A stretch of DNA of 64,000 nucleotides, from positions 142,697,308 to 142,761,307 of the forward strand of contig OZ023273.1 in NCBI GenBank assembly GCA_964007475.1, given 5' to 3'. Made by a program: the position numbers and the translations under genes. Under the pieces are notes generated by a model. The model was not told where the DNA came from. It worked only from the letters and a program-made list of their open reading frames with translations, and ran no database searches. Source of the DNA: Hybos culiciformis. Lineage: Eukaryota; Arthropoda; Insecta; Diptera; Hybotidae. Shown piece by piece: positions 17,601 to 61,663 of the stretch (the first letter of the stretch is position 1; every line of letters begins with the position of its first letter).

Positions 17601-20600
17601 TATTATTGTTAAAATTATCCTTTAATTACGATTTGAAATAAATTTTCGATTTAAGATAAATATCATAAATCTCTCCATTAATCTTATATATTATGAAATT
17701 GACATACCTATTTTTACAATATACAATATTTTTTTAAGTTATATCAAAAGAATCCAGCGGTTAAATTTCAATATGGTATTTGTTATTTTATACCTTATCC
17801 ACAAATACATTTCATAAATTCTTAGAAAAATCATATTTTAACAATTTGCTTGAAAAAAAAATGTAGCAAATAAAATAATATTATTTGGTAGCATTATTTC
17901 GGTTCAATAAACTGTATGTAGTTTATATTGAAAACTATGGTGTTCATGATATTCATTGTGATTTATCTTTTGCAACATGAACTGTATAAAACATGTAAAA
18001 ATTGATTTTTTACAATATTTAATTTTATTTTACTTTTTTTTTTTTATTAAATTAAATATATTTGTTTATTTTTTTTTTATAAATTCTTTTTATTAATTAG
18101 AATAATCTAAACAAAATTTAATTTAATTATACTTAAAGACAATCGTATTTTTAGTTCGAACGAAATTCTAAAACTGAAACTTATTTTACCTTTCTTTCTT
18201 ATATTTATGATTTTACATTCAATATTAGAAATATTAAATTCGTAATTTAACACCTCTTTAAGTTTATTAAGAAATATAAAAATTGCACAATTAAAATAAC
18301 TTACGTTTTAGTTTTTTTATAAGAATAAAATTTAAGTTCATAAAAATAAGCAAATTAAGTAAAAAGTAAAAAGCTCGTGGAGGAAATTTGGATATTTGTA
18401 ATAAGTTAAAATCTTATAGGAGCGGAAATGGGTTTTTTATAAGGGAAGTTGGATTCGGAGTATATGACTCCCCCTTCCTCAAGATTTTTGCACTCCTGGG
18501 CAAAACTTTTAGATTGCTTATTTATTAGAATTGTTCGAGTTTTCTTTTTTAAATAACATTTTATAAAAATTACAAAAACTATAATTAGCAAAATGATTAC
18601 AATAACAGATATATTAAAATAAATTAGTAGACTGTTTTGTTTTCTTTTATAAACAACTTCTTCTATTTTTTTGTTATTTTCTATTTGTTTGATATGTAAA
18701 TCTTTTAAATTTAGTGTTAAATTCAAATTTTTTATGTGTTTATAGCTTGGTAGAACAATATTATGTTTGAATTCTTTTTGTTTGTTAGAAAACTCTATTT
18801 CATTTAATTTTACAGAACAATTGTTGAAAGAAATTAAGTGATTTTTGTTTAATTTATACTCTACGTTATTACAAGTGTTAATTAAACTCATGTTTTTTAC
18901 ATTTTTAACAATAATTAAACCTAAATCTATTTCTATTATTTCTGAATTTTTGTTTGTTATTTTATGACAATCGACATAAGAATTATTTAATAAATTCGAA
19001 ATACAATTATTCGTAGGTTTTAGTTTGTTTTTATATTTTTCTTGATCCAGATAGTATGATTTATTTTCAAAACTTATTACATCTACAATGTTTATGTCTA
19101 CTTGTTCATTTTCTAAATTTGGAACCGGTATAATTTTATAATGAATCGCTTTGAATTGATTTAGTACAGGAATTTCCAACACAAAAATTAATTTTGATTC
19201 ACTAATAGCTAAGGAACTTTTGAGTTCTTGAATTTTAAAAATATCTATTTCATAAAAATCTATTTCTTCTGGGGTAAGAATGGACCTACTCATTATTTTA
19301 TGTTTTGAGAATATAACGTTTTCCTGAAGTTTTTCAATTTCATCATTTAAAAGGTTAATATTTGTTAGTAATTGTAAAAATTGAATTTGTTTAATAGTAT
19401 TGCGATTTTCGAAAGTCACAAAATTTAAAAGTTTATCAATTGCGAGATGGTTATCATTGATACTGGTTTGTAATTTTTGTATGTTTTTCTGAATTGAGAA
19501 ATTTATTTTTATTTGTTGATTTGAACTTTGGATATTATTATGAATATTTTCGTCTACAGTTTTTAAGTGATCTTCTATTTCTGTCTTATCCTCATCATCC
19601 ATTGTGCCAAAAAGCCATTTTAACGCAGATCCGCCACGATTGATCAAACCTCTTTTTTTTCTTATCGGTATTAGAGTTTTAAATGTATGTTCTACTTTTT
19701 TTTGTTTCTCTTTAAGAGTTCTAATAATACTTTGATCTTCCGGCAAATTAAATGTCGTTGTAATCTGGTCCTCTATAGTTCTTAGGATTATTTCTAATTC
19801 TTTTAAATCAATAATATGGATAATTTTGTCATACGAATCGATTATTGGAATATCTTCTTGTCGAATTGTCACAAAACCACTTTCTGTTTCTAATTTTTCT
19901 ATGTTAATTGCGGCTTGACACGGACTGATTAACATCGCGCCTATTGTTAGAACCGTTAAAACCACCTAAAAAATTTTTGAAATTTCTTTTAATACGAGAT
20001 GGATGGATATTTCGTTTTTTTTTGTCAATTATTTTGTTATCAGTTTTAAAGCATTTAATTTTCTTATATCTAGGCTCATCTTTATATCTAACAATTGCTG
20101 GATTTTTGATAAGAATTTCATCAGAATCTGGGGCAAAAAAATTTTTTCGGTTTTCATTTAATTTTGAAATAACTTTTTCTTTTTTTTGTAAAATTTTTTG
20201 TTTAATGTTTTCAAAATCTAAAGGTTTATTTCCGAGAAAATCAATTGGTTTTTCGCCCGTAGTGGAATGAATAGTATTATTATATATTTCTACTGCTTTT
20301 AGGATTTTGGACTCAATATCAAGATTAGGTTGTGTTATTTTAAAAATTCTAATATGTTCATTTATTGTTCCATGGGCTCTTTCAATGTCAGCATTACCTG
20401 TACAAGATCTTGGTGATGAAAAATGAATTTCTATATTTTCTGATCTACAAAAATCCTTTAAATTTAAATTGTCAAACTCATTGTCAAATATAAATTTCTC
20501 TGGTTTCCCTAAAAGAGAATTACGAAGTCTTAATGCTTGAACAATTGTTACACTATTTCGATCGTTTAATTTAGACACGTATAAATGTTTGCTAAACTTA

Positions 20601-23600
20601 TCAATCGCTGTTAAAAATATTGTTTTATTTATGTAAAATATATCAACGTGAACTATTTTATTCGTCTCAGAAGGTGTTTCAGATAAATGATATTTATATT
20701 TGATTGGGTTTCTGTCATATTTCGTCAGATTGCATACATCGCAATTATTTACGAATTTATGGACAAAACTTTTCAGATTAGGGAAATAATATAAATCTTT
20801 TATTTCAAGAAAGTTTTCAAGGATCCCCCTATGATTTGTATTTTCGTGAAAGTTTTTTATTATTTGAATTAGCTCATCTTCACTTTCTAAATTTTTTGCT
20901 ATTCTGGTACATCTAATAAATTTAATTCGGGGTTCACCACTGAATAACTGGATTAATATATTTTGGAGAATTTTGTAATCATTTTCCTGCAATTCAGAAT
21001 AAATTCCAGTGGTTCCGATTTTAATTAATCTACGCAAAAGGTCGTTTAAGTACACAGAAAAAAATTTGCTCGTACTCATTACGTCAAAAAAGTTCGTTAA
21101 TGACATTCTCGTTAAGATAACGAAAAATAATGAATAACTACGTTTTTGTAACGTAAATTTCGTTTATTTTCTTATTACGAACATTTTTTTCATTTTTAGT
21201 ACTCGTTAAAAAAGTTCGTTATCGTTAAATACGGGAAACAAAAATTTCAATCCATATAGAACTTATATTTTCCATTTTACACATTGCCGTAAATGTAGTT
21301 CATAGCTCAGTGGCAGAGTTGATGGATTGCAATGTTTAGGACAGTGGTTCGAAGCCACAAGCGGGCATAAAAAAAATTATTAAAAAAAAATTTTAAAAAT
21401 AAATAAAAAAATAGAAACATAAATAAAAAAAATAAATAAAATAAAAAAAAATAAATAAATAAAAAAAATAAAAAAAATAAAAGAAAAATAAAAAAAAATA
21501 AAAAAAAAAAATAAAAAAAATAAAAAAAAAATAAAAAAAATAAAAAAGAAATAAATAAAAAATTAAATAAATAAAAAAAGTCTAGTAAATTTTTTCTTTC
21601 GTATTTGCGGTGTTTTTGCTGAAGAATTTGAAAGGTTTTTGGTTTTGGGGTATAACGAACTTTTTTAACGAACTACGAGCTTTTTTCAACAAAATGTTCG
21701 TTGTAGCCAAAATAACGAATTTTTCGTTGATTTTAACGAATTATTTAGTTATTAGTACGAGCAGATTTTTTTCTGTGTAATTTTCGTTATTTAAATCGTT
21801 TTTTGAAATAATTATTATTCTGTATTTTTTATATTTTGTAATTAATTCATCTGTCCTTTCTTCTACTAAATGAATTTGAGTTAAATATTTATTTACTATG
21901 CTTTCCGAAATAGGAATTTGATTATCTAAATTCTGAACATTACTATGGATTGTGGCTAACTCACTGCTTTCGTCACCAATATCAATATTTTCAGTTTCAA
22001 TGACATTTATTTCATTTTTATTTACATCTATTCTACTTAGAAAGTCGGCCACTTTATTATCTTTGCCCTTGAGGTATTCTACACTGAAGTCGAACTCGTT
22101 TAGTTTTATTCTCCATCTTTGTAGCTTTGAATTGGGTTCGTTTAAAGAATGCAACCAAGCTAATGGTTGATGATCTGTTTTTATGTTAAATTTTACGCCA
22201 TATAGATATGGTCTAAAGTATTTTGTAGACCATACTATAGCCAAGAGTTCTTTTTCAATAGTACTATATTTTATTTCATGTTCGTTAAGTGTTCGACTTG
22301 CAAAAGATATAGGGTGACCATTTTGTGATAAAACGGCTCCAATTGCATACTGGCTTGCGTCAGTAGTTAATGTAAATCTTTTATTAAAATCGGGATATTT
22401 TAGAATCGGATCGTTGGTAATAATTTCTTTCAATTTATTAAAAGCTTGAATATAATTCACATTATTTTCATCAATTTTATTATTTTTTTTCAAACAATTA
22501 GTTAGGGGCTGTGCTATCTTAGCATAGTCTTTTATGAACTTCCTATAATATCCAGTTATCCCCAAAAAACTTTTAATGGATTTTCTTGTTTTAGGAATTT
22601 TAAGTGACTTAATGACTTGAACTTTACTTGGGTTGGGCTTAATGCCTTCATTAGTTAAAACATGTCCTAAATATTCTGATTCTTTTGATAAAAATGAACA
22701 CTTGTCGACTTGAATCTTTAGATTAAATTCTCGAAGTTTCTGAAAAATTTTGTTAATTGATTGAATATGTTCTTGAAGAGAAGTACTAAAAATTAAGATA
22801 TCGTCAAGGTATACGACACAATTAATATTAATGAATTCGCGTAATACGTGATTCATAATTCTTTGGAAAGTGGCAGGAGCGTTTTTTAAACCGAATGGCA
22901 TCCTGACATATTCGTAGTGACCCTGGGGGGTCGAAAAAGCAGTTTTAGCTTGGTCCTTTTCGTCAACAAGAATTTGATGAAACCCTTTTGCCAAATCTAA
23001 AGTTGTGAAATATTGAGATTTACCCAATTTGTCAAAAAGTGATTCTATGTTTGGAATCGGAAACTTGTCATCTACAGTTATCTCGTTGAGCTTTCTGTAA
23101 TCGACGACAATTCTCCATTTCTTAACACCTGAATGGTCTAGTTTTTTCGGCACTACCCAAATTGGTGAATTATATGGAGAATTACTATGTTTTATGATAC
23201 CTTGTTCTAGCATTTCAGAAATTTGTTTTTCAACCTCTTGCTCATGTATTTTAGGGAATCTGTAAATTTTGGAATAAATGGGTTGGCTATGTTTCGTAAT
23301 AATTTGATGTTTGATATTTGAAATATTTGTTAATTGTTGTCCCTCTTGAAAAAATAAATCTTTATTTTCATAAATAATTTTTTTCAACATTTTCTTTTCT
23401 TCATAATTAAGATGTTCAGTTTTAATAAAATCAACAATATTTTTGTTGTCAAAATTTAATGAATTTAATTCGATTATATCGTTGTAAGGGCAGGAATTTT
23501 TAAATTTAGTGACTTTGCCTTTAATTTCAACATGTCCTTTTTCTAAATCAATTTTCGCGCCAATAGCACGAAGTATATTTTGTCCCAATATTGCTTCGAA

Positions 23601-26600
23601 TTTTTTATTACAAAATTTCAGTAATTTCCATGTCATTGTGGCGTCATGGTCAAATTCTAAAGGTACCTCAGTAATTATTTCATGGGTAATTTGGTTTTTT
23701 CCAAATAATGTAACAAGTTCAATTTGATTCATTAATTTATTTCGTTTTATATTAGGGAAAAGATGGTCACTAATTATTGATATAGAAGCACCTGTATCTA
23801 TTAGGCAATTAATTTTTTTATTGTGAATTGAGAATTCTACTATTGGTAATGGGTTTTCCGAGGTTGTAAACGAAAATTTTGTTCAATGTTATTTGAATCA
23901 ACTTCCATAGGTTCAAAACTTCCATGATTATTGTTAGCATTAGCGTTTAAAGAATTTTGATCATAATTCTGTTTTCGAGAAAAATTATTGAAATTCGAAT
24001 TTCGATTGGAATTAAAATTGTAGGTTTGATTAGAAGTGGGATATCTTTGAGGAACACTATTATTGTAATTATTATTGTTAAAATTTTGAGATTTATTAGG
24101 CGTGGGATAAGTTTGAGGAACACTATTAGTGTAATTGTTATTATTGGAAAAATTATGTCTTATATGTCCCTGATATTGGTTATTATTGTTAAAAGAGTTA
24201 CGCTGGAAATTATTTTGTTTATTATTAGCTTTAACAATATTTTTTTGAAAAGGTGTCGGGTTATCTTGGATTCCTGTTTTTATTAGTTCAAAATAAGCTT
24301 CTTCAAGAGATTCAATGTTCTTAATTCTTAAAAACATACTATCTGATCGTGGAAGTTTATTTAAAAATTTTTCTAATATGCTTTTTTCATTATTAATTGT
24401 ATTAAATTCTGCTGGCTTTTCATCATCTAACTTATATTTTAAATTTAACTTATCCAATACTTGAGATAACTCTTTATAATATTGACTTACACTACAGAAC
24501 CTGATTGAATCTGCTTCCTCCTTTAATTTCAAGTATGATTGTTGAACACCGAACGATTTCTTCAATTGTAATTTTATTTCGTCCCAAGTAGCGTTTTCCA
24601 ATCTTCTAATCGACAAAGCAGCCGGTCCTTGAATTTTACTCACCATTACATTCAACAAATAATTTTTCATATTTTGGTCTGCGGTCAACCCAACAATTGT
24701 CTCTACTTCTCTTATAAAATGTGTTAATTCAAAGGTGTCATCGCCACGAAATATTGGAATAGCTCTAGCTTCAGTAATTAGATCTCTACCTGTGATATTA
24801 TTTAATGCCATGTTATTAGTTGTTTCAAAAATATTATTAACTTTTTGTTGTGCTTCAGCTAATTCTTCGTTATATTTTTCTTCAGTGATTACTCTGAGTC
24901 TAGGTTTATTCAAACTTGAAGGTTTACGATATGGTCTCATAAGTTGATACCAATAAATTCTTAAAAGAACACCAATTTCACAAAAAAAAAAATTTTTTTT
25001 TTTTTCTTATTTATTTGTAAAAATGGTTTGGTATCCTACCGACTGCGCCAAACATGTAAAAATTGATTTTTTACAATATTTAATTTTATTTTACTTTTTT
25101 TTTTTTATTAAATTAAATATATTTGTTTATTTTTTTTTTATAAATTCTTTTTATTAATTAGAATAATCTAAACAAAATTTAATTTAATTATACTTAAAGA
25201 CAATCGTATTTTTAGTTCGAACGAAATTCTAAAACTGAAACTTATTTTACCTTTCTTTCTTATATTTATGATTTTACATTCAATATTAGAAATATTAAAT
25301 TCGTAATTTAACACCTCTTTAAGTTTATTAAGAAATATAAAAATTGCACAATTAAAATAACTTACGTTTTAGTTTTTTTATAAGAATAAAATTTAAGTTC
25401 ATAAAAATAAGCAAATTAAGTAAAAAGTAAAAAGCTCGTGGAGGAAATTTGGATATTTGTAATAAGTTAAAATCTTATAGGAGCGGAAATGGGTTTTTTA
25501 TAAGGGAAGTTGGATTCGGAGTATATGACTTATACAATTAAAAAAGACACTATGAAAAACACTGATCAAAGTTGATCAGATATGTGGATTTATTGATGTG
25601 ACATATAGTTTTAGGTTTTTATGTTTGTTTTTTAATTCAGCTAATATATTATAAAATATATTAGTATGTACATTAAGTTGGGGATTAAATTATTGACTAA
25701 AAATATTAATCTATCTTAAATAATTTCAAGGGAGTTTACTTTATTTTATTACTTTTTATTTAAAGCATAATCTATGTAAAAAGTAAATTGAATTATGATC
25801 TGATCGTACTGATAGAATTCATCCATGCGTCTCCTCAATGCAAAAAAACATAATTTCTTAAAAACTCTTATTGAATTACCACAATATTTATTGAATAGCT
25901 GGCTTCTAATCATTTTATTTAATTTACTCGTAAGATTAAATTTCAAGACTAATTTTTATAAAAAAAAAAAGTTTATTTTGCGAGACGAGGGGAAAAATAT
26001 AATATTTTTATAAGTAATCGTAAGTCAAATTTCAATCAAATTAAATTAATCTGAAAGCTGTAATTTCCATTTTAATAGGCATTAATTTTTATGTTTGTCC
26101 ACGAAAAGAAACAAATCAAAAATTTATGAGCTTCGAATACGATGAGTTGTTTAAAACTATATGAAAATCTATAATATAGTTAGCTTCAAATTAAACCAAG
26201 GCGTTCCACCCTCTAATCATTATTTTTGATAGTTTTTAGACGGTTACGAAAAAAGAATAGTTTTTTATTCTTATTTTCATTTATTTTTTTAGAATCAAAT
26301 ATTTTTTTATTTTTTTTTAACATAAAAACGAAAACAAAATATTATGCTATTCGCCCACATTTTGAATTTATATTCAAATTTGTTTACCTTTTTAACTTTA
26401 TGAACTTTTATGTGAAATTTTAGGTCAAATTTTTTACTAAAAAAAAAAATATTGGCGTAAAAAATTTACCATAAAGAAATCTAATTTCTGAAAAGCCTTG
26501 TTATAGTTTTTTTTTATGAATGTATATATAAAGTTAATAAAAGATAAATGGAATTTTGAAAAATAAAGTCACGTTTTAAAAGTAGTTCAGCTCAATTATT

Positions 26601-44578: not shown

Positions 44579-44611
44579 GAAAAGGAAAACAATAACGCAG
44601 AAATTAGACTG

Positions 44612-46740
44612 GATAGTAAACTGGGGTGGAATTATGTAACTTTGTCGTTTTTGTGACAATCGACAATTTCAAACACGATCAATTTGTATGGACAATGAAA
44701 ATTATTGCTTCGCGTATTTAATCATCATCATCTGTTGTATATTATATTTCTTTCTGTCAAAAAAAGAGTTTATTTCCTCTCTTTAAGAGAAAATATATAC
44801 AAAGTAAAGCTTACTTCAAGAAAAGAAGAGTCCAAATTGTAAATGTGTGGGTTATAAAACTTAATAAAAACCTAAAATTTCAACTGATTTATAGAGTGAA
44901 CTTTGATTTATAAAATATTTAAAAAAATGTGAGCGCGGAGAAAAAAAAATTATGTACCTACTTTTTTTGAATTTAATAGACAATTGTCGAAAAAAAGTTT
45001 AGCTTCACATAACTGAAATTATAGACAATTGTCTATCAAATAAAAACGACAGCTATTTTTTGGTCGTCAATTTTAAAACAATAAATTAATAAATCAAAAT
45101 TTTTTTTTTATAAAATGTCAATTTACTTTTATTCAACAAATGATTTTATTTCGTAACCATTGATAAGGATTACGTTTTTTTTTTTTTGTTTTTTTTTAAT
45201 TATTTCCATTTCGTCGAAGGTTCAAACTGTTGTTGAATAAAGAATAAACATCTATAAGCATCTTAAAAAAATAAAACGTTTTATTTTTGAAGTGAATTAA
45301 AAACTTCAATAATAAGAAAGTCTAAATATTTGGCCATTAATTTCTAAATTATAAATTAACAAAAACTACAATGTATCATGTTAAAATTTTGATTTACGAT
45401 TTTATGAATTGTAGGAGGTGAGAAGGGCTAATATTTAATCCTTGAATGGCAGTTTTCAAGATGCCTTATTGAATGTTATTTATTATAGAATTTTTTTATT
45501 TTTGGACCATTTGATAGTTTAATATTTTTATCTGATTGACCATTATTGAAAGAAAATACTTGGCTTATTAATAAAAATAATTAAAATAAATTGTTTATTC
45601 TTAAACAATTGTTTTATAGTTATAATTTATTCTCTAATTAAATTTAATTTTTTAAACACTAAAAATCATTTAAATTAGTTATGGCTCCTAAAACCTAAAT
45701 TTTTATAAAAATGTATTATTTCCTAGATAATGATCAGAAATTAAAATTATAAAATTTGAATTAGATACCAATGTAAATATGTACATAATTCAAGGAAGAT
45801 TATTTGCTTTGACTCAGCTAAAAGATGCAAAACTAAAGAAGCACGTTTGATAAGTCATTCTATTGTTATGTTATTTATCTCTTAGATAATATTGTCAAGG
45901 AAGAAATATGAATCGGAACAAACGAAGTATGTTAAATATTAACACAAAATTTGACCCAAGCAGAAGTACTTAGTTCTGAATAAAATAAAATCGGTTAAGA
46001 AAATAATCATTTTTTAATTAAATAAATACATTTTAATGAAGTAAAATAATGGTTTTGTTTTTCCAAAATTAATGAATTGATTGAAATATTTGTTTAAAAT
46101 TTATCTTAAAAAGAAGTAGGTACTTTTAATCAACATAAAAGCATAAGTTAAATAGATAGTTAAATTTATGATTAACGAATTATAAATAAAACACAATTAT
46201 GAAAAAGTGTAAAATAAGTATGCGTAATTTTCAAAAATTTCATAAAACCTTAAATTCACAATTTATGCGAAATTGAAGTGAACACCACACCACATACGAA
46301 ATAAAAAATTTTCTATATCAATTTTCACGTTGCCATTATAAAGAATACAACTAAAAACTTTTTGTTAGTGTATGTTTTAAAATCATAAATACAGTATAAA
46401 ATTTTTGAGTTTGTTTACTAAATTAAGAAATTATTGAGAGAGAAAAAATGTGGTTTAATATTTAAAAAAAATTCTCTACACTATATTTTTTGCTAAAACG
46501 ATATTTAAAAATTCACGATATTTTTTCATGAAGCAAAAAAGTCGAATTGGTCGTGTTTGTGATCGAAGTCGACAATTAAAAATTTTTTTTTTCGTTAATT
46601 TCTGAATAATATTATGAGAAATGTGATTTCCACCTATTAAAATTACATGAAGCAAAAAGTCAACAATTGTTAAATTTTGTGACAATTGTCGATTGTCGAC
46701 CGGTGACAATTGTTATATGATTCCACCCCTGGATAGTAAA
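44612..46740. mobile_element. 2.11-kb noncoding DNA transposon, copy 1 (uninterrupted)
   Basis: The element 44621-46731 has inverted ends CTGGGGTGGAATTATGTAAC and, from the right, CAGGGGTGGAATCATATAAC. It is flanked on both sides by GATAGTAAA (44612-44620 and 46732-46740), a 9-bp duplication. Several GACAATTGTC or GACAATCGACAATT motifs lie near both ends and inside (for example about 45000 and 45032). No protein-coding frame; nonautonomous. The CAGGGG terminus resembles hAT, but the 9-bp duplication would also suit Mutator-like elements. Confidence 0.85.
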
Positions 46741-48084
46741 CTGGGGTGGAATTATGTAACTTTGTCGTTTTTGTGACAATCGACAATTTCAAACACGATC
46801 AATTTGTATGGACAATGAAAATTATTGCTTCGCGTATTTAATCATCATCATCTGTTGTATATTATATTTCTTTCTGTCAAAAAAAGAGTTTATTTCCTCT
46901 CTTTAAGAGAAAATATATACAAAGTAAAGCTTACTTCAAGAAAAGAAGAGTCCAAATTGTAAATGTGTGGGTTATAAAACTTAATAAAAACCTAAAATTT
47001 CAACTGATTTATAGAGTGAACTTTGATTTATAAAATATTTAAAAAAATGTGAGCGCGGAGAAAAAAAAATTATGTACCTACTTTTTTTGAATTTAATAGA
47101 CAATTGTCGAAAAAAAGTTTAGCTTCACATAACTGAAATTATAGACAATTGTCTATCAAATAAAAACGACAGCTATTTTTTGGTCGTCAATTTTAAAACA
47201 ATAAATTAATAAATCAAAATTTTTTTTTTATAAAATGTCAATTTACTTTTATTCAACAAATGATTTTATTTCGTAACCATTGATAAGGATTACGTTTTTT
47301 TTTTTTTGTTTTTTTTTAATTATTTCCATTTCGTCGAAGGTTCAAACTGTTGTTGAATAAAGAATAAACATCTATAAGCATCTTAAAAAAATAAAACGTT
47401 TTATTTTTGAAGTGAATTAAAAACTTCAATAATAAGAAAGTCTAAATATTTGGCCATTAATTTCTAAATTATAAATTAACAAAAACTACAATGTATCATG
47501 TTAAAATTTTGATTTACGATTTTATGAATTGTAGGAGGTGAGAAGGGCTAATATTTAATCCTTGAATGGCAGTTTTCAAGATGCCTTATTGAATGTTATT
47601 TATTATAGAATTTTTTTATTTTTGGACCATTTGATAGTTTAATATTTTTATCTGATTGACCATTATTGAAAGAAAATACTTGGCTTATTAATAAAAATAA
47701 TTAAAATAAATTGTTTATTCTTAAACAATTGTTTTATAGTTATAATTTATTCTCTAATTAAATTTAATTTTTTAAACACTAAAAATCATTTAAATTAGTT
47801 ATGGCTCCTAAAACCTAAATTTTTATAAAAATGTATTATTTCCTAGATAATGATCAGAAATTAAAATTATAAAATTTGAATTAGATACCAATGTAAATAT
47901 GTACATAATTCAAGGAAGATTATTTGCTTTGACTCAGCTAAAAGATGCAAAACTAAAGAAGCACGTTTGATAAGTCATTCTATTGTTATGTTATTTATCT
48001 CTTAGATAATATTGTCAAGGAAGAAATATGAATCGGAACAAACGAAGTATGTTAAATATTAACACAAAATTTGACCCAAGCAGA
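46741..48084. mobile_element. 2.11-kb DNA transposon, copy 2, left part
   Basis: Matches copy 1 at a constant offset of 2120 bases with no difference found. The copy is interrupted after AGA at 48084 by the 7.4-kb element and resumes at 55480. Confidence 0.9.
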
Positions 48085-48443
48085 CCCAATATACCATCGC
48101 GCCAGTTCGCAAAGAAATGTCAAGTATTTGTACTGGCATGGGCGTCGATTACTGAACCGGCCTACAAGTTCACTCATAGTTAACATATTTTTGGCACACC
48201 GGCTTAAAATATGCCTCCGACTTGTTTGTTAGTTTTGAAACTAACCTGAACACCAATAAACAGGAGTTTGTCCCGGCCGCCAGTTTTAAGGTCAGCTGAA
48301 AAGACCAATTTAAATTACCGACTTTTGTGTCGGATATTGAACTATGTTCTAAGTCGAAACAAATATTTGACCTTGCAGTCTATCTTATTTTTGAGTGTAA
48401 GCGACTTATTACGGTAATCTTTCTCTTCAAACAGTTACTGGTT

Positions 48444-48601
48444 GTACATAAATGTCAGTTTACGTAAAGCTGACAGCAGCGTGAGTTATTTTTGTACAAA
48501 TAACTATTATAAATTGCTTATTATATGTTGCTAAATCAAAGGAAATTGCAAGGCGTACATAAGCGCCAGTTTACGTAAAGCTGACAACAGCGTCAATTAT
48601 T
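48444..48601 (+). repeat. subterminal direct repeat of the 7.4-kb element
   Basis: A roughly 47-bp imperfect unit containing CAGTTTACGTAAAGCTGAC occurs at 48444-48490 and 48555-48601. Related AAAGCTGAC sequence appears inverted near the right end (about 55210-55232). Possible transposase-binding repeats. Confidence 0.6.
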
Positions 48602-48724
48602 TGTTGCTTTGTTGACTTTGTTGATAAGTTGACATTTATAATTTCATTATATTTTGAAAAACAAGCACGTGATGGAAAAAATTTAAACAACAATAAAATA
48701 AAATAAATAAAAAATAAAAAAAAG

Positions 48725-48730
48725 GTAAGT
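48725..48730 (+). other. consensus-quality 5' splice donor within the element
   Basis: AAAG|GTAAGT is a near-perfect donor. It might splice a noncoding leader exon from the element to the acceptor at 49444, giving the cargo genes a transcript start. Inference only. Confidence 0.3.
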
Positions 48731-49059
48731 TTATTTTATTTTATTTATATTTTTTATTTTTTTTTTTTTTAAATTATTAAAGCAAAAAGAGTTAAAAAAA
48801 CAAAAAAACATAATAATAAAGAAAAGAATTCTACATAGGATATTAAAAGAAAATGGACAAATTTTTCGTTTTTCAAGGATAAAAATTTGAATGAAAACAA
48901 ACTTTTTCAAATTATAATAATTTTTTTTTTGGTTTTAAATATTATTATAATTTATAATAATAATAATAAAAAAATATACATAAGCAAACCCCATGGTAAA
49001 TTTTCGGATATAAAAATTAAATTTAAACTTACACTTTTTATTTAATTTTTTTTTTAGAT

Positions 49060-49420
49060 AAACAGTAGAGCCGTCTTTTGAAGAATTTCCGGGAATTCCT
49101 TGTTGTGGTGGTCGGCATAACTACAGTTTCCTTGAACCTCTCAGAATCGGCTGAAATTTGGACGGGGGGCAGAGGTGGTGCCAAACTCCCAAAACTGAAA
49201 TCAGTTCTTGAGACAAAGGCCCCGTTTCGGAGATAGGGGCCTCCAAAGTTTTCATACATTTTAGTATGAAAATTTTTTTTGAGCCTGATTTGCCCTATTT
49301 TTGGGTAGGTAATAGAGGTGGTCCCTAAAATGTTAAATCCGAGACAGTTGGTGTTAGGTACCAAACCTGCCTATACCAATTTTAATTTTCTTTTGTTAAA
49401 CTTTTAGTATCAACAACTGA
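49060..49420. repeat. GC-richer repeat-like segment in the 7.4-kb element
   Basis: Composition differs sharply from the flanks (GGACGGGGGGCAGAGGTGG, GGCCCCGTTTCGGAGATAGG). It contains an inverted patch (TTTTCATAC...GTATGAAAA). A 108-codon minus frame crosses it but resembles no family. Probably a fragment of another mobile repeat. Confidence 0.4.
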
Positions 49421-49444
49421 CATTTTTCTTAACATTTGCCACAG

Positions 49445-49726
49445 ACAACATACCACCATTTGAACCATTAGATATAGAAGACATAAATATAGGGAATGGT
49501 GCTGAATTTCAGACAATCTTAACAAATATGAAAACAACTGGCGGCAGTAATGTTTTGATCGATAAATTTAAGTAATTATTCGTGTTTTTAAAGTTTAAAG
49601 AGAAAGTAAACTTTATTATACTTTTTTTTTATTAGAGCTAATTTAACAACTTTTGAATTCGTGATGTCAGCTACTTTACCACGAATTGATTTCACTGGCA
49701 ATTACAAATTGAATATTACAAATTGA
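49445..49726 (+). pseudogene. takeout/JHBP-family fragment (captured)
   Basis: Two exon pieces, 49445-49571 and 49636-49726, are joined by a 64-bp GT-AG intron. The reading frame gives the start and middle of a takeout/juvenile-hormone-binding-protein domain: IPPFEPLDIEDINI (compare the family pattern IPxLDPLxIxxI), then a strand pair with NMKTTGGSNV, DKFKANL, and LPRIDFTGNY. These proteins are secreted lipid carriers of about 240 residues; only about 70 are present, without a signal peptide. The frame ends at TGA (49724-49726), and the next base starts transporter sequence in the same frame with no intron between, so this is a fusion scar. Family assignment is by pattern recognition. Confidence 0.65.
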
Positions 49727-52700
49727 ACCGCTGGAAAGGAATTCATGGGTATAATTGTGTCCGCTAATCCTTTGGGTCAAATGATATTTTCACCAATTTT
49801 TGGTTATTGGGGTAAAAAAACTAATACGATAAGACTGCCTTTATTATTTTCATTGGTAAAATTTGAATTAAATTTAAAATACCTTTGGTTAATTATTTTT
49901 ATATTTTAAGGCTATGTTCGTTGCTGCTAGCTCTGCTTACTCATCATTGGAAATGATTAATACAAATACAACATATTGGATGTTAGGATCTAGATTTTTA
50001 GTTGGAGTATCCAGCAGCAATGTTGCATTATGTAGAAGTTATTTATCTGCTGCAACTAGAATTTCTGAACGTACTGGAGCTGTTTCTATGGTATCTTTAG
50101 CTCAAGTATTAGGTTTTATTGTTGGTCCAGCATTACAAGCTGGTGTCACTCCGTGAGTATTAGTACTATTAGTTAAAGTCCATAAAAATTATATAAAGTT
50201 GGTTTATAAATTACAATAAACATTTTTTTTCTTTCATTTTCAGACTGGGTGGAACTGGTTATACTTTTTTCAACTTTATTAAGCTTGATATGTATACAAC
50301 TTGTGGATGGTTAAATGCATTGATGGGTGTATTAAATTTTTTCCTATTTCTACCGATATTTTTTCAAGTATGATGAAATACATATGCTAACATTAAAAAA
50401 ATAAAAAAATATTAAGTTTAATAATAATAAGTAAACATTATATTTCAAAGGTGATTGAAATTTTCCAAAATACTCTATTACTGCACTCTTATTTACATTT
50501 TTTAGAAACATATTTCATAATGGCAAAAAAAATTTAACTAATTTAAAAAATACAAAAAAAAAAATTTGCAAAAATTTAGCTTAAAGAACATTTTTTTCCG
50601 TTTTCTCATTATGATTAAAAAAAAAAAATTAATTTGTCTACTTCTATTTGTTTCAATAAAATAGTTATTCTGTAATTGTTAGCAATAGGACAAAATTTTA
50701 AGTTGACTAACAAACATTGTTTCTGTTTTTTGATCGCCTTTGTTAAACTAATTTTTGAATTGTCACTGTTCAGTTAAAGAATAAAAGAAGAGTAATATTA
50801 TAGTAGAATTAATACGAGTAGAATTTAGATTTGCGGGTAAACTCATATTATGCGTCAAAAAGCTTAAAATTATAATCATATTCAAACTTGGTGAAGAAAT
50901 AGCAAATATGTTAACTTAATATTTTATTGAAATTTTTATTTTAAAAAAATTTTTAGCTTTAACAATATTATGTGCAATCTGTGAAATCAATACAACTTTT
51001 GATTTTTTAAACATTTTTGTTTTGAATTTATAGTAAAGAGATAAAATTTAAGTAATTTTTTCTGATTTTTCAATATTCTGATAACAATTTCAACAAATCT
51101 GGAAAATGGACATTGTATTCCAGATTTTTTTTTAAATTTCTCACTTACGTATAAATGTAAAAATGTAGAAATCTGTAAAAATACAAAAAATTAATTTAGT
51201 TTCTGGTAACCAAATTTTAATCATTTTAATCTTCTATGGTGAATGCTTGTATGTACATTGTATTATGATTGAACCTAAAACCTTTTTTATTTACTAAAAT
51301 AATTAAAAATATTTCAATAAATGCTTAGGAATTAAATGCACTGTTTGCAATTTCAATTTTATATTTTTATTAAAGAATTTCCTTTATTTATTTTAAGGAG
51401 AGAAAAATCGCTGCTAAAGAAGTAATGAAAATTCAAAATGCAGAAGCAGAAAAATGGAAAGCACCGAAACCAGATTATATTTCAGCTTGGACTTTGATAA
51501 GTGCTTTCTTTGTACTGGTGTTCAATTTTGTTTTACTTGAAACACTTGGTTCATCATTAACCATGGATCAGTTTGCTTGGACTAAAGATGAAGCAGTTTA
51601 TTATATGGGTATAGTAATGAGTGTAGGAGCCATTGTAGCTTGCGTTACTTTTGCTTTTATAGGAGTTATGTGTAAATATTTTTGCGAAGAAAAAGTTTTA
51701 ATTTATGGTGGATTCTTTTTAATGGTTAGATTTCACTTTATTCAATGTCCAATTAATTTTCAAAATTTAGAAAGTGTCATTCAAAAGTTTTCTAATTGTA
51801 TTAATTTTTTTCAGGTTATTGGAAGACTGGCGTGCATACCCATGGGAGATATGCCACCAAAAATTGGCGAGGTTTATAACAAAACTGAATGTGAAATATT
51901 AAAATGTAATGAAGATGACGAAAAATATTTAGGTTGCCCTCGAGATCAAGAGTGGTGCTTATACACACCAGCTATAACGATATCACAATTTCTACTAGCC
52001 TATTTTTTTACTTCAGTTGGATATCCAATAGGTATTTATAAACCTTTCTATTTTACTTTTAACCCTTTAAGCATTGAATATTACTAATTATTTTACTCAT
52101 TTACTTTTTTTTATTATTACGGTATAAACTGATTAAATTTTTAATGATTCCAATTAATTTATGAATTTATTTTTTAAAAAATTAATCAAAATATCAAAAA
52201 ATTATATATTTTGAGACTTAAAATTAAATAATTTCTATACTCCAAATAAGATAATTTCAGTATAATGTATACATCTATAGATATTTAGATTCATACGTAA
52301 GTTATTTGAAATATTAATACTCATTGTCATTAGATATCTTCTTTCAAAACTCGAAGGCTTAGGGTTAATTAGCATATGGATTTTTTTTTTTTAAATAATT
52401 TAGATCTTGGAGATTTTAATAATTTTTCTTTTATTTATTTACATAAAGGTGTAACGCTCATCCAGACAATATTTTCAAAAATTCTCGGTCCTCGAGATCA
52501 AGGTGTAATGATGGGGTTTATGACTGGGTCTGGATGTTTTTCAAGAGTATTGGGGCCAGTATTTGTTGGTTCTATTTACACTAGATTGGGGACATACTGG
52601 ACGTTTGGTTTTACTGCAGCAATGATGATAATCGCTATGATTTGGTTAATAATGTTCAGGTTAGTATACTTATTTTTTAACAGATAATAATTTATTTCAC

Positions 52701-52881
52701 AATATTATTATTTTGTAGGAAGCGATTAATTCCACCTGTATATGAAAAATCTGAGGATCCAGAAAAATGTATAGAAATGCAAGAATTAGTCACAAATGAT
52801 AATGTTAGAGTTATTTCCAACCAAAATAACGACGTAAATGAGCCATTTTTGATGAAAAAGACAGAAACAAATTCGAATTGA
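49727..52881 (+). CDS. CLN7/MFSD8-like major facilitator transporter, N-terminally truncated
   Basis: Exons 49727-49855, 49911-50152, 50244-50367, 51398-51724, 51815-52031, 52449-52659 and 52719-52881 join in frame to 470 codons and TGA; all introns are GT-AG. CLN7/MFSD8 is a lysosomal membrane transporter of the major facilitator superfamily, usually about 500-520 residues. Recognised blocks: AGKEFMG plus NPLGQMIFSPIFGYWG; RFLVGVSSSNVALCRSYLSA; LAQVLGFIVGPALQA; KPDYISAW; LTMDQFAWT; WCLYTPAITISQFL; GVTLIQTIFSKILGPRDQG; TGSGCFSRVLGPVF; YTRLGTYWTFG. About 45 N-terminal residues including the first helix are missing and replaced by takeout sequence and a stop. The first internal ATG is at 49745. 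The rest is undamaged, suggesting recent capture or continued use. The whole gene sits inside the mobile element. Confidence 0.85.
50368..51397 (+). other. transporter gene intron, about 1 kb
   Basis: AT-rich GT-AG intron retained inside the mobile element. Nothing else seen in it. Confidence 0.75.
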
Positions 52882-53613
52882 AACGAAATTAGTGTACTTT
52901 ATAAAGTTTTTTATGTACTTTACTCAAATTTTAGAAAATTTATTACTATTTAAAACAAAAAAAAAGTACCTTAGATTATTTTATAAGCTGACTATTTACA
53001 AACAAAGAAATTGTATTTTTACAAAGGAAAAAAGTTGTTGTTGCCAAATAATTTTTAAGCGAAATGATATTTTTTTTACTATATTTTATTTAGAATATAA
53101 TTTTTAAGTATAAAGAAATTTTTTTTTTGATATTAATCAATTAAAATCATGATATTCTATTTATTTCAACTAATTAGTAATTTTGTTATAAAAATCACAC
53201 AGTAAGTTAATTAAATAAAGATTTTTTTTTCGACAATTTTTATATATAATAATAATACCTAACCTAACAAGAAAATATGCATTTAACGAAGAAATTTATT
53301 AAAAAAAAATTATCGCAGTCATAATACTATTTAATAAAAATTATTTTTATTTATTTTATTTAATTAAAGCGTTTTTAAAACATTGTGTGTATTTATTTTA
53401 TATGCAAAGCTATATTTCTTAGTATCCAAAAGCACATTGATAATAATAAAAGGATAAAAAAGTGTTTGCAATATAAAATTTCTAATTATAGCTATTTTAA
53501 TTTTAATCGAAAAAACAAATTGGCGGTCGATTGATTGATTCAATTTTCAAAGTATTTTTTTTTAAAATTCTTAAAAATATTATAAATTTTTACATATTAT
53601 TTTTCATTTTAGA
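52882..53613. other. AT-rich stretch after the transporter
   Basis: Probable 3' UTR with AATAAA-like signals; no other feature seen. Confidence 0.5.
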
Positions 53614-53856
53614 ATAATCAAGAATATTATTTTAATAATATTATTATCGATATATAATCCAATTGTTAAATTTAAATGTGATTTGATGGAATTTTTTGAT
53701 CAAGAAGAGAATCAGCTCAGAGCTACGAAAATGATATCATGCAAAAATCTAACAATACCAAGAAATTCTGGATATATCTCTATTATGAATTCTCAGTTGA
53801 ATGAAGACTTTGATACTTTTAGTCATGTGAAGCATTTGAAAATACAGATACAATAA
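53614..53856 (+). other. exon-like frame of unknown identity within the element
   Basis: After an acceptor-like TTTTAG, an 80-codon frame runs to TAA at 53854. From about 53653 it has balanced composition and coding-like content (FKCDLMEFFDQEENQLRA, then SGYISIMNSQL), unlike the low-complexity chance frames around it. I do not recognise a family. It could be the last exon of a third captured gene. Confidence 0.35.
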
Positions 53857-54844
53857 AAACTAATCTATATTTTTTTTACCATGAGATAAATGTATGTATA
53901 TTTTTGTTAAATTTTTGTTAAGTTTAAATAATTTTAACGAGAAAAACCATTTCACTTTTTATGGAAAACAATTCAAAAAATTTCATTTATAATTTATACG
54001 TTTAAAAAAATTTTAATTTCTACGTATCAAGTAAGAAAAACGTTATTTTGCTGAAATTAAAATATTAGATTTATTGTATTTTTTTTTTATCAACGTAAAA
54101 ATGTAAATGTCCAATTTTTAATTGAATTTATAAATTAAATTCGAATTATGGTGAATTCGGCTGTCTTTTTTCTGCAGCAATAATATTTTTGCATTTTTTT
54201 TTTTAATTTTGATAACAAGATATAGGGTATATTGCATAATACGCTTTAATCAAAAATAAAAGAACAATATTTAAAATAAAATTATTTTTACTTTTACATA
54301 TACAAATAATAATTTCATATACAAATAATAATGAGCTCAATCTCAAGAATCCGAAATTTTCGGCCATATTAAGTATCTAAAAATCACAGAAGCTTATTAA
54401 ACGAAAATTCAAGAAATATTCTAAAAGTTTTCAAATATCATTAAAATAAGTTTAGCATACGAAACGTTTTCATCAAAATCAAGTTTTATTTATAAAAATG
54501 TGCAACGATTTTTGCTTTTACAACATATATACATATATATACATATACATCATTTTAATTATATTTATGAAGTACATAAGAAATGTATTTTGTGAAAAAT
54601 AGATTCATTCGATAATTTTAATATTAATTACTAAAATCTTTCGTTTTTGAAAATTTATGTTTTAATTTTTATAAGAGAATTTATGTTAATTTGTTTGTTT
54701 TTATTATTTTTATGTTAAATAATAAATAGTATTTCAACATTAACTGTATCTGATTCTTATTTTTGCCATTTTGGTTACAACAGTTTTTTTTTACTTTAGC
54801 AAAGTTACCATTAAATGAGCTGACATTTTGTTAATTGATGTTAA

Positions 54845-55070
54845 TGTTAATTGTAAAATATACTTTAATATAGGCTCACCATTTTTGTCCTCCTAAAAGG
54901 AGGGCCTATTCAGAATATTTTTAGTTTTTCGCAAATATCTCGAAAATATGAATGGGTAAAAAACGCACCGTTTTCGAAATATTTGCGAAAAACTAAAAAT
55001 ATTCTGAATAGGTCCTCCTTAGGAGGACAAAAATGGTCAGCTTACATTAAAGTATGTTTTACAATTAACA
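54845..55070. repeat. 226-bp near-palindrome (fold-back MITE)
   Basis: The left arm from TGTTAATTGTAAAATATAC through GTCCTCCT and the AAAAACTAAAAATATTCTGAATAGG complement mirrors the right arm ending ACAATTAACA, with about 20 unpaired bases in the centre. A few mismatches and small indels separate the arms. Noncoding; would fold into a long hairpin. Confidence 0.8.
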
Positions 55071-55479
55071 TCGACGGCAGTCATAGAATTGTCCTTCGAT
55101 GTCCGTCATATAAGTGACATTTAAGTAAGATTTACAACTAGCTTAGTAGTCAGCCTGATAACTGATCCTGGAGACAGTTTTAATTCTGACTTATATGTTA
55201 GTTTCATAACTAACGGCTACGTCAGCTTTATTCTTTACCTTAATGCTTGTCGTATACCTAACGTTCAGTCGTAATTTACGGTTACAAATAACTAGCTCGA
55301 AGGCACTTGATGTATGGGCAATGTCAGTTATTTGTCACCTATATACGATCCATGTCGTACTTTTTATATATCCTTGTGGCTAACGTGTTCATATCATTAG
55401 TATACTAAGTTAGTTAACAAATGATGTTTTTTATTTCCGATGAACTAGACAAATAACTGACTCGTGGTATATTGGGAGA

Positions 55480-56246
55480 AGTACTTAGTTCTGAATAAAA
55501 TAAAATCGGTTAAGAAAATAATCATTTTTTAATTAAATAAATACATTTTAATGAAGTAAAATAATGGTTTTGTTTTTCCAAAATTAATGAATTGATTGAA
55601 ATATTTGTTTAAAATTTATCTTAAAAAGAAGTAGGTACTTTTAATCAACATAAAAGCATAAGTTAAATAGATAGTTAAATTTATGATTAACGAATTATAA
55701 ATAAAACACAATTATGAAAAAGTGTAAAATAAGTATGCGTAATTTTCAAAAATTTCATAAAACCTTAAATTCACAATTTATGCGAAATTGAAGTGAACAC
55801 CACACCACATACGAAATAAAAAATTTTCTATATCAATTTTCACGTTGCCATTATAAAGAATACAACTAAAAACTTTTTGTTAGTGTATGTTTTAAAATCA
55901 TAAATACAGTATAAAATTTTTGAGTTTGTTTACTAAATTAAGAAATTATTGAGAGAGAAAAAATGTGGTTTAATATTTAAAAAAAATTCTCTACACTATA
56001 TTTTTTGCTAAAACGATATTTAAAAATTCACGATATTTTTTCATGAAGCAAAAAAGTCGAATTGGTCGTGTTTGTGATCGAAGTCGACAATTAAAAATTT
56101 TTTTTTTCGTTAATTTCTGAATAATATTATGAGAAATGTGATTTCCACCTATTAAAATTACATGAAGCAAAAAGTCAACAATTGTTAAATTTTGTGACAA
56201 TTGTCGATTGTCGACCGGTGACAATTGTTATATGATTCCACCCCTG
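55480..56246. mobile_element. 2.11-kb DNA transposon, copy 2, right part
   Basis: Matches copy 1 from 45965 to 46731 with no difference found, ending CCACCCCTG at 56246. The following flank (ATCATTGTA) is not the GATAGTAAA found on copy 1's right. Confidence 0.9.
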
Positions 56247-60685: not shown

Positions 60686-61663
60686 ATGAAAGGTAAGAAT
60701 AAAAAAGTAAACGATAATTCTGATGAATCAACTGCTTCGAATTGTGTAATCTGCAAATTCACAATCAATGATAAAATTGAAACATCAATTGAGTGTTCTA
60801 CCTGTCTCAAGTGGATACACTCTGAATGTTCTTCGCTTACTGAAGAGGAGTTTGATCGTATGAACGATGATGAAGACACATCCTGGCGGTGTCGAAAATG
60901 TTCAGCGAAAAACTGCAAAACCACAAATGAAAAGATTCAATTTCTCTTTGAGGAATTAATAAGCAATATGGGTACAAATAAATTACTTAAAATGTTAACA
61001 AAAAAGTTTGAAGACATATCAACGAATTACCAACATCTTGACTCTAAGGTCAAACAATTAGAAGAAAAAAATCTGTCTCTCGAAACAACAGTATACCAAC
61101 TTCAACTGGAAGTGAACGGGCTGAAACAACTTAACTTAGCGAATGAATTCATAATTAAAGGACTTCCACTAAATATTTCAAACTCCAACTCAAAAGGTAT
61201 TATTAGTACTATTGTTGACGCATCTGAGAAAAGTGGTGGTGAAATATTGGAAACTGACTTTCAGCATATCAGAATCAAAGCAAAAACACCGAGTGACATG
61301 GAAAATAATCGGACTCCAATATTTATCAAGCTGAAAGACGACAATAGTAGACATAAATTTTTCAAGTCTCTCGCTGGCCTAAGAAAAATACTAGGCAAAA
61401 ATCTCCATGTTCATGATGTCCTCACATCGGAAAATCAAGACTTACTAAGGTATGCAAAAATTTTAAAGAATCATAATTTTCAACGAATATATGTCAGAAC
61501 AGGTATTATCTATGTAAAGCAGAATGATACAACAAAACCTATAGCAGTACGTTCAAAAGAAGATATTGATAACATAATTTATAGTATAATGAATAATAAT
61601 GAAGCAAACAGCCCAGATGGTGTTTTAAGCGGAAAATCGAGTGACAATCGGAACAGCGAGTAG
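60686..61663 (+). CDS. LINE ORF1 protein: PHD finger, coiled coil, baculovirus FP-like domain
   Basis: 325 residues. A PHD-type C4HC3 zinc finger occupies about residues 20-75 (CVIC, then CSTC, IHSEC, WRCRKC). A heptad coiled coil lies at about 112-145 (KVKQLEEKNLSLETTVYQL). The C-terminal half starts near LANEFIIKGLP and resembles the FP25-like domain found in many insect LINE ORF1 proteins. ORF1 proteins package the LINE RNA. The start ATG is 15 bases after the A run. Intact, ending TAG at 61663. Confidence 0.85.
   Translation: MKGKNKKVNDNSDESTASNCVICKFTINDKIETSIECSTCLKWIHSECSSLTEEEFDRMNDDEDTSWRCRKCSAKNCKTTNEKIQFLFEELISNMGTNKLLKMLTKKFEDISTNYQHLDSKVKQLEEKNLSLETTVYQLQLEVNGLKQLNLANEFIIKGLPLNISNSNSKGIISTIVDASEKSGGEILETDFQHIRIKAKTPSDMENNRTPIFIKLKDDNSRHKFFKSLAGLRKILGKNLHVHDVLTSENQDLLRYAKILKNHNFQRIYVRTGIIYVKQNDTTKPIAVRSKEDIDNIIYSIMNNNEANSPDGVLSGKSSDNRNSE

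Follow-up and report, generated by a model that had tools for sequence, protein, structure and literature searches.

Here we describe a 7392-bp DNA transposon in the fly Hybos culiciformis that carries pieces of two host genes with their introns and belongs to a large family of Pack-type elements, recently active in this animal. The element occupies positions 48085-55476 (+) of a 64,000-nucleotide stretch (here, the window), which lies at C1:142.70-142.76 Mb of the 342-Mb, 509-contig assembly used for all genome searches. We consider it a non-autonomous cut-and-paste transposon of the Pack-TIR (terminal inverted repeat) kind, from a family that takes pieces of host genes into its interior at the DNA level, and give this reading a probability of roughly 0.88. 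The donor genes persist elsewhere, introns are kept, modules are combined differently between elements, and completed chimeras are found at several sites, flanked by different target duplications. Gene capture by DNA transposons is regarded as a plant speciality, scarcely seen in animals. Here, the capture mechanism is directly testable, because the family has drawn on many donors, its junctions can be read, the donor genes survive, and daughter copies are nearly identical.

The borders of the element are set by the DNA around it. Self-comparison of the window revealed that positions 44609-45964 are identical to 46729-48084 (1356 bases, 100%) and 45962-46731 to 55477-56246 (770 bases, 100%). 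The underlying 2120-bp tandem repeat is intact in its first copy (44609-46728), while the second (46729-56243, in the parts 46729-48084 and 55477-56243) is interrupted exactly at AGA. Because the split falls exactly there, the insert is 48085-55476, 7392 bp, with AGA duplicated to its left (48082-48084) and right (55477-55479) and the empty site AGA preserved at 45962-45964 of the intact copy. The preliminary description, made from the letters of the window, had proposed just such a precise insertion into one of two identical tandem repeats, and the self-comparison agrees. The 100% identical repeat may itself reflect a haplotype falsely duplicated by the assembly; the element is independent of this.

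Both ends of the element are CCCAATATACCA, a perfect 12-bp inverted match (48085-48096, +, and 55465-55476, −) found by self-comparison and end search. Since the split repeat fixed the end points independently of their letters, this match is not due to chance. Elsewhere in the window, the 12-bp end occurs at no place with zero or one mismatch and at one place with two. A comparison of the first 586 with the last 401 element bases identified an 18-bp near-palindrome, GTTAGTTT..AAACTAAC, common to both arms (48228-48245 and 55197-55214); its score of 15.5 exceeds the highest score from 100 Markov shuffles (14). The inverted ends and shared subterminal motifs noted previously are thus both borne out. 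A long palindrome (86%; 54844-55071) is no chance nested insert, as most of the related elements that we fetched have it in their right arm.

These relatives are numerous. The exact 12-mer end has 317 copies in the genome (159 + 158), against 19 (11 + 8) for the reversed control, and a left-end 20-mer allowing at most one mismatch has 129 (59 + 70), against none for its control. The window element is therefore no one-off insertion. The preliminary description depended on there being other loci with the same ends, motifs, and 3-bp duplications; hundreds of ends exist, many of them paired and flanked by duplications. Paired elements were drawn from the 100 of 317 end places listed, all on C1 below 92.7 Mb. 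Among these, 34 units have a + end followed by a − end at a span of 962 to 12,282 bp, and all 34 were fetched. A 3-bp duplication flanks 32 of them, with mixed sequences that include TAA, TCG, GTC, AGG, GCA, AAG, and TAC. Both outer ends match the window element in 33 of the 34; the remaining one, L034, was compared in the opposite orientation, and its end differs by one letter. Most fetched elements have about 690 bp on the left and 800 to 900 bp on the right in common, with interiors that differ by type. In the window element, the left arm shared with most other types spans about 690 bp (48085-48774, +). Three further hits (L045-L047) were rejected as belonging to another repeat, since they continue A[A]GAATCC and have no arms. 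The left end had no hits in viral_contigs, and an arm 28-mer had none in genome_contigs.

Inside the window element, the inner left module (49057-49451, +), common to this point with L011 and L009, is followed by a captured takeout/JHBP piece of two exons and one intron (49448-49716, +, by alignment borders), a 10-bp filler, TACAAATTGA (49717-49726, +), a captured CLN7/MFSD8-like piece of seven exons and six introns (49727-53134, +), and the right module (53132-55476, +). Pfam identifies the first piece as JHBP (4.3e-15), in line with the takeout-type exons reported earlier. The second reads as 470 amino acids across its seven exons without an internal stop, all six introns being GT..AG, and matches MFS_1 at 2.7e-37; Pfam gives MFS_1 alone, and the CLN7/MFSD8-like assignment is a probable one, made by reading the sequence. 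The earlier view of a nearly complete CLN7/MFSD8 gene with all its introns holds for these exons and introns, within the borders now drawn, but not for the first coding part, which is lacking: the donor exon is cut 11 nt inside. Neither piece had a PDB match at an E value of 0.001. A GC-rich segment (49038-49364) is open on the minus strand, and a minus-strand Pfam scan that included this open reading frame (ORF) found no family likely to belong to it. The CLN7, IDH3-gamma, and L009 elements also have in common a fast-evolving multi-exon gene ('...ISCKNLTIPRNSGYISIMNSQLNEDFDTF...'; window 53575-53853, L009 oriented 2545-4033) without a confident Pfam match.

Donors of both pieces, which the preliminary description had proposed to look for, are present in the genome. 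A search with the CLN7 protein returned six element copies of like score and one other locus, at C2:22.11 Mb; the cargo region of the window element is found at 100% identity at six places. The donor, which starts at C2:22111587, is identical to the element at 3306 of 3315 positions (99.7%) through exons and introns alike. The match runs on to element base 5050 (146/146), and the two sequences diverge abruptly on either side of it. On the left, the break lies 11 nt into the donor exon that begins after ...ATTACAG. The takeout donor is a separate locus at C1:137.10 Mb (C1:137098397-137098665, −; 99%). The 52 bp that end at 49451 recur at 18 further genome places with 94 to 98% identity. The CLN7 match shows directly that capture took place at the DNA level, as had been suggested, and retroposition is excluded because introns are retained.

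The same holds for other members of the family. A query of the genome with four further proteins, at 92% identity or more, returned 5 KIF1, 21 Wee1, 7 IDH3-gamma, and 6 polyprenyl-synthase places. For each gene, one place is 0.7 Mb or more away from every listed left end (KIF1, C2:82.77; Wee1, C1:107.36; IDH3-gamma, C1:5.24; polyprenyl synthase, C2:8.97 Mb), the list counting exact left ends and covering C1, C2, and C3 as far as 27.1 Mb, with the small contigs and the rest of C3 outside it. Donor and left junction were confirmed for KIF1 (97.2% over 287 alignment columns), Wee1 (98.0% over 296), and IDH3-gamma (96.3% over 272), gaps included.

At the junctions read so far, there is either microhomology or a short filler copied from sequence adjacent to the break. 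In the window element, the inner left module and the takeout piece have up to 4 bp in common (ACAT, with only alignment borders to place the donor side), the filler between the takeout and CLN7 pieces copies the adjacent 49703-49712, and the CLN7 piece overlaps the right module by 3 bp (ATT). Other junctions were read by eye. Wee1 in L020 and KIF1 in L022 each overlap by 1 bp, the IDH3-gamma capture, which sets in at codon 2 of the donor, has an 11-bp tandem duplication, AGCATTAAGAG, and L016 has undergone a secondary deletion at AAAAAAT. These junctions are few, and 1-bp overlaps carry no meaning alone. Synthesis-dependent, microhomology-based repair leaves junction microhomology and copied fillers, and the features seen here are probably its marks.

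Comparison between elements indicates that one frame has been filled more than once. Over its right 2.3 kb, the window element is 99.07% identical to IDH3-gamma elements such as L010; over its first 1090 bp, it is 99.9 to 100% identical to them; and over its first 1367 bp, it is 99.7% identical to the polyprenyl-synthase element. As arms and modules are shared around different interiors, the same frame received different genes. L026, at C1:57.45 Mb, equals the window element across all 7392 bp (100%). Identity within sub-groups (IDH3-gamma, three Wee1 sub-types, L027/L041, and L032/L044) is 99.9 to 100%; between sub-types and looser pairs it is about 95 to 99.6% over shared parts, and certain Wee1 sub-types are as low as 89% in their left arms. 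It follows that the bursts are recent and the frames older.

Host gene pieces are widespread in the family, and the number of genes and of copies, like the single prevailing orientation, goes beyond what the preliminary description anticipated. Pfam hits were obtained for 14 of 20 chosen ORFs: Iso_dh in L010, polyprenyl_synt in L011, EMP70 in L012, Pkinase in L016 and L043, FHA and KIF1B in L022, SOS1-like PH in L030, RUN and PH_RBD in L032, MFS_1 in L033, and a tyrosine kinase with ABC2_membrane in L042. The other 6 had no Pfam hit, nor did the ORFs tested from L009, L027, and L037. PDB matches identify the L010 cargo as IDH3 gamma (1.4e-41) and the L016 cargo as Wee1 (2.1e-47). The L042 tyrosine kinase is best matched by a Trk receptor (7.8e-12) and has a weak SH2_1 hit (5e-4); it reads as possibly JAK-like and is left unnamed here. 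In a wider scan of 16 representatives, which did not include L034, ORFs were chosen mainly by length (138 of 175 non-redundant ones on the minus strand and 131 of 225 on the plus strand). The plus-strand set matched 41 families at an E value of 0.01, and the 25 shown add Cupin_8, DHC_N1, RhoGEF, and 7tm_7. The minus-strand set had one strong domain, MADF (1.6e-9), and four weak ones at 0.0012 to 0.0075 (MutH, SAS-6_N, Peptidase_C6, and Ferlin_C).

Gene pieces thus lie sense to the left arm in 16 cases and antisense in 1 (two-sided sign test, 2.7e-4), in a grouping of domains at an E value of 1e-3 or less that was made after the data had been seen. The 16 are JHBP, CLN7, Iso_dh, polyprenyl_synt, EMP70, Wee1, FHA/KIF1B, RhoGEF/PH, RUN/PH_RBD, the MFS of L033, the tyrosine kinase, ABC2, the kinase of L043, and Cupin_8, DHC_N1, and 7tm_7, whose bearer elements were not pinned down; the four weak minus-strand hits and several weak or overlapping plus-strand hits stand outside the count. 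The sole clear antisense domain, the MADF ORF, is in L028, which also has a displaced left arm. MADF proteins also accompany Harbinger transposases, so this ORF may belong to a transposon and not be cargo at all. Two elements (L036/L037 and L038/L039) hold nested retroelements besides gene cargo, with gag-like ORFs and a 1208-codon ORF of the LINE (long interspersed nuclear element) type.

The left arm itself has features of a 5' exon. At its inner border, an intron-like stretch (48725-49056, +) runs from AG/GTAAGT to TTTTTTTTTTAG/ATAAACAG, with borders that recur among elements and a variable length between them. The AG/GTAAGT and a T-run before AG/ATA are found in 15 of 21 representatives; the pair is absent from L016, L028, L031, L034, and L040 and takes a variant form in L033. 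In L022, the KIF1 piece starts four bases past the left-arm acceptor, with an ATG directly after (fifth to seventh position). The left arm may drive transcription. One could go further and see the family as a self-renewing exon trap, in which the left arm would supply promoter, 5' exon, and acceptor to sense captures downstream, chimeras would be expressed as new genes, cargo would keep being swapped, and the movement would be due to a transposase superfamily not yet tied to animal gene capture; we regard this extended proposal as rather unlikely. The family is in any case a natural experiment on the origin of chimeric genes and on the prevalence of one orientation.

For that prevalence, there is an explanation of considerable weight, if somewhat short of an even chance, in which the bias arises in the capture step itself, for example, through transcription-coupled polar template switching, rather than from selection that removes antisense pieces. 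The ratio of 16 to 1 suits it, and as far as is known, no case has been selected for expression. Against this, the splice-site pair in 15 of 21 left arms gives sense captures a chance of expression and retention.

CACTA (CMC/EnSpm) ends begin CACTA or CACTG, PIF/Harbinger elements make a 3-bp duplication of the TWA type, and Helitrons move by a rolling circle without inverted ends or target duplications. The window element has both inverted ends and a target duplication. TCG, GTC, AGG, GCA, AAG, and TAC occur among the family's duplications, and such a mixture argues against canonical Harbinger targeting. The features that define Pack-TIRs are all present, namely, inverted ends with duplications, host-gene interiors with a parental copy elsewhere (CLN7, takeout, IDH3-gamma, Wee1, and KIF1), and no transposase among the families shown for the ORFs scanned. 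Alternatively, the family could fall within CACTA or some other known superfamily, have an autonomous partner there, and be an ordinary non-autonomous derivative whose cargo is incidental. This is a possibility that we rate at about one in three. The 3-bp duplications, short inverted ends, and repeated subterminal motifs are CACTA-like, and the genome has four places with a CACTA-type transposase; the ends, however, start CCC, none of these transposases lies near an end on C1, among the ends listed, and host genes in most long types argue that the cargo is not incidental.

To account for the captures, we propose that a break or stalled fork within an element would allow repair synthesis to switch template to a distant gene, that the repaired capture would be sealed by microhomology-based joining, and that an unseen transposase acting on the shared ends would multiply the product. 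Captures sense to the 5'-exon-like left arm, with its splice sites, would then be kept preferentially. Tandem insertion and re-mobilisation, the model stated for Pack-TYPE elements in the portion of the source available to us (PMC8903248), would instead start from two elements inserted on the two sides of a gene; the outermost ends would carry the gene along as one unit, and internal deletions would shorten the result. Some same-direction ends do lie close together (C1:73180381+/73188986+ and C1:84902284+/84908982+), and internal deletion does occur (L016 versus L020 at AAAAAAT, and L013 versus L015). We nevertheless consider this route improbable: the window element unites pieces of two separate chromosomal origins across a copied filler of 10 bp, its right module is common to an element carrying another gene, and no end sequence remains at the inner junctions. 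Retroposed genes, a Helitron-like or viral element, or an assembly artefact are very remote explanations despite the long palindrome near the right end, the stepwise gene capture described for maize Helitrons in the part seen of PMC3288121, and the 100% identical tandem repeat, given the retained introns, the perfect inverted ends and target duplications, the absence of the left end from viral_contigs, and the many separate copies at different sites.

Several observations weigh against template-switching capture by a trans-mobilised Pack-TIR family. Neither an autonomous partner nor a family transposase was found: no transposase domain was present among the 138 minus-strand and 131 plus-strand ORFs of the 16 representatives (plus strand, among the 25 of 41 families shown). 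This accords with the earlier remark that the element has no transposase inside. The proposal of mobilisation in trans agrees with that lack and with copies whose target duplications differ, but no partner of the kind it calls for emerged. Two of the four CACTA-type places are on C1, with no listed end within 250 kb, and the others are on C13 and C37. Harbinger-type transposases occur at no fewer than 152 places. Of these, 40 are listed on C1 below 92.6 Mb, and none of the 40 has a listed end closer than 44 kb. On C2, one Harbinger-type place and a left end are 8.3 kb apart, against a chance expectation of about 0.6 such pairs. L026 and L040 are the only two of the 34 fetched elements without matching 3-bp flanks. 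The takeout donor is known from alignment borders; the polyprenyl-synthase stretch (L054, C2:8.97 Mb) had no match to L011 and is a candidate donor only. The post hoc grouping behind the orientation count belongs here as well.

Some of these places deserve description in their own right. Many of the Harbinger-type places have long open frames, and they cluster densely at 70-95 Mb of C1 and 56-65 Mb of C2. L026 (C1:57452240-57459831) lacks matching flanks despite its identity to the window element, and recombination or flank change may explain this and the like case of L040. Elsewhere in the window, a Ty3/gypsy-like retroelement (17989-25530) has gag-, pol-, and envelope-like ORFs (Baculo_F, 9.6e-7); its insertion is recent because the flanking 481-bp direct repeats are 100% identical. 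An ORF with PHD finger and Baculo_FP_2nd domains (60686-61663) is probably the first ORF of a LINE-type retroelement.

Comparison with published systems, several of which were seen only in excerpt, places the family among known forms of gene capture while setting it apart from each. In the portion seen of the 2021 animal survey by Tan et al. (PMC8277862), 370 Pack-TIR cases are counted in 100 genomes, none of them in insect reference genomes and four of them multicopy; the same text describes Ssk-FB4, a foldback-type element of Drosophila populations that captured a nearly whole gene and is found at three loci. The preliminary description had called a nearly whole animal gene in a short-TIR element unusual; the survey is in keeping with this as regards insects, but Ssk-FB4 is a published precedent for a nearly whole gene. 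Like these animal elements, the family holds host DNA in terminal-inverted-repeat transposons, with breakpoint microhomology and multicopy transposition to different duplications. Unlike Ssk-FB4, with its inverted ends of about 700 bp and duplications of 9 to 10 bp, it has 12-bp ends and 3-bp duplications, and unlike the surveyed Pack-TIRs, it combines many donors in one family and up to about 20 copies of one chimera (PMC8277862). In the literature searched, which excluded most subscription papers, we found no insect family of this kind, and the passages seen of a 2026 survey of arthropod Mutator-like elements mention gene capture as a mere possibility (PMC13359780). Among plant systems, as far as the excerpts describe them, the one most like it in its workings is the soybean CACTA element Tgm-Express1 (5.7 kb, fragments of five unrelated host genes), which likewise keeps exons and introns with usable splice sites, but it is a single described insertion with known transcripts, whereas the present family is read from DNA alone (PMC1947982). 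Pack-MULE and Pack-CACTA elements are also non-autonomous, with several donors per element, related families, and reshuffling between elements; they differ in belonging to plant superfamilies with known autonomous relatives and in acquiring genes via tandem insertion and re-mobilisation, according to the sections seen (PMC8903248). Stepwise capture of gene fragments within one family is shared with maize Helitrons, again judging from a partial view of the source (PMC3288121). What is new here is the scale and youth of the family, its many donors, its long intron-bearing cargo, and its one-way orientation.

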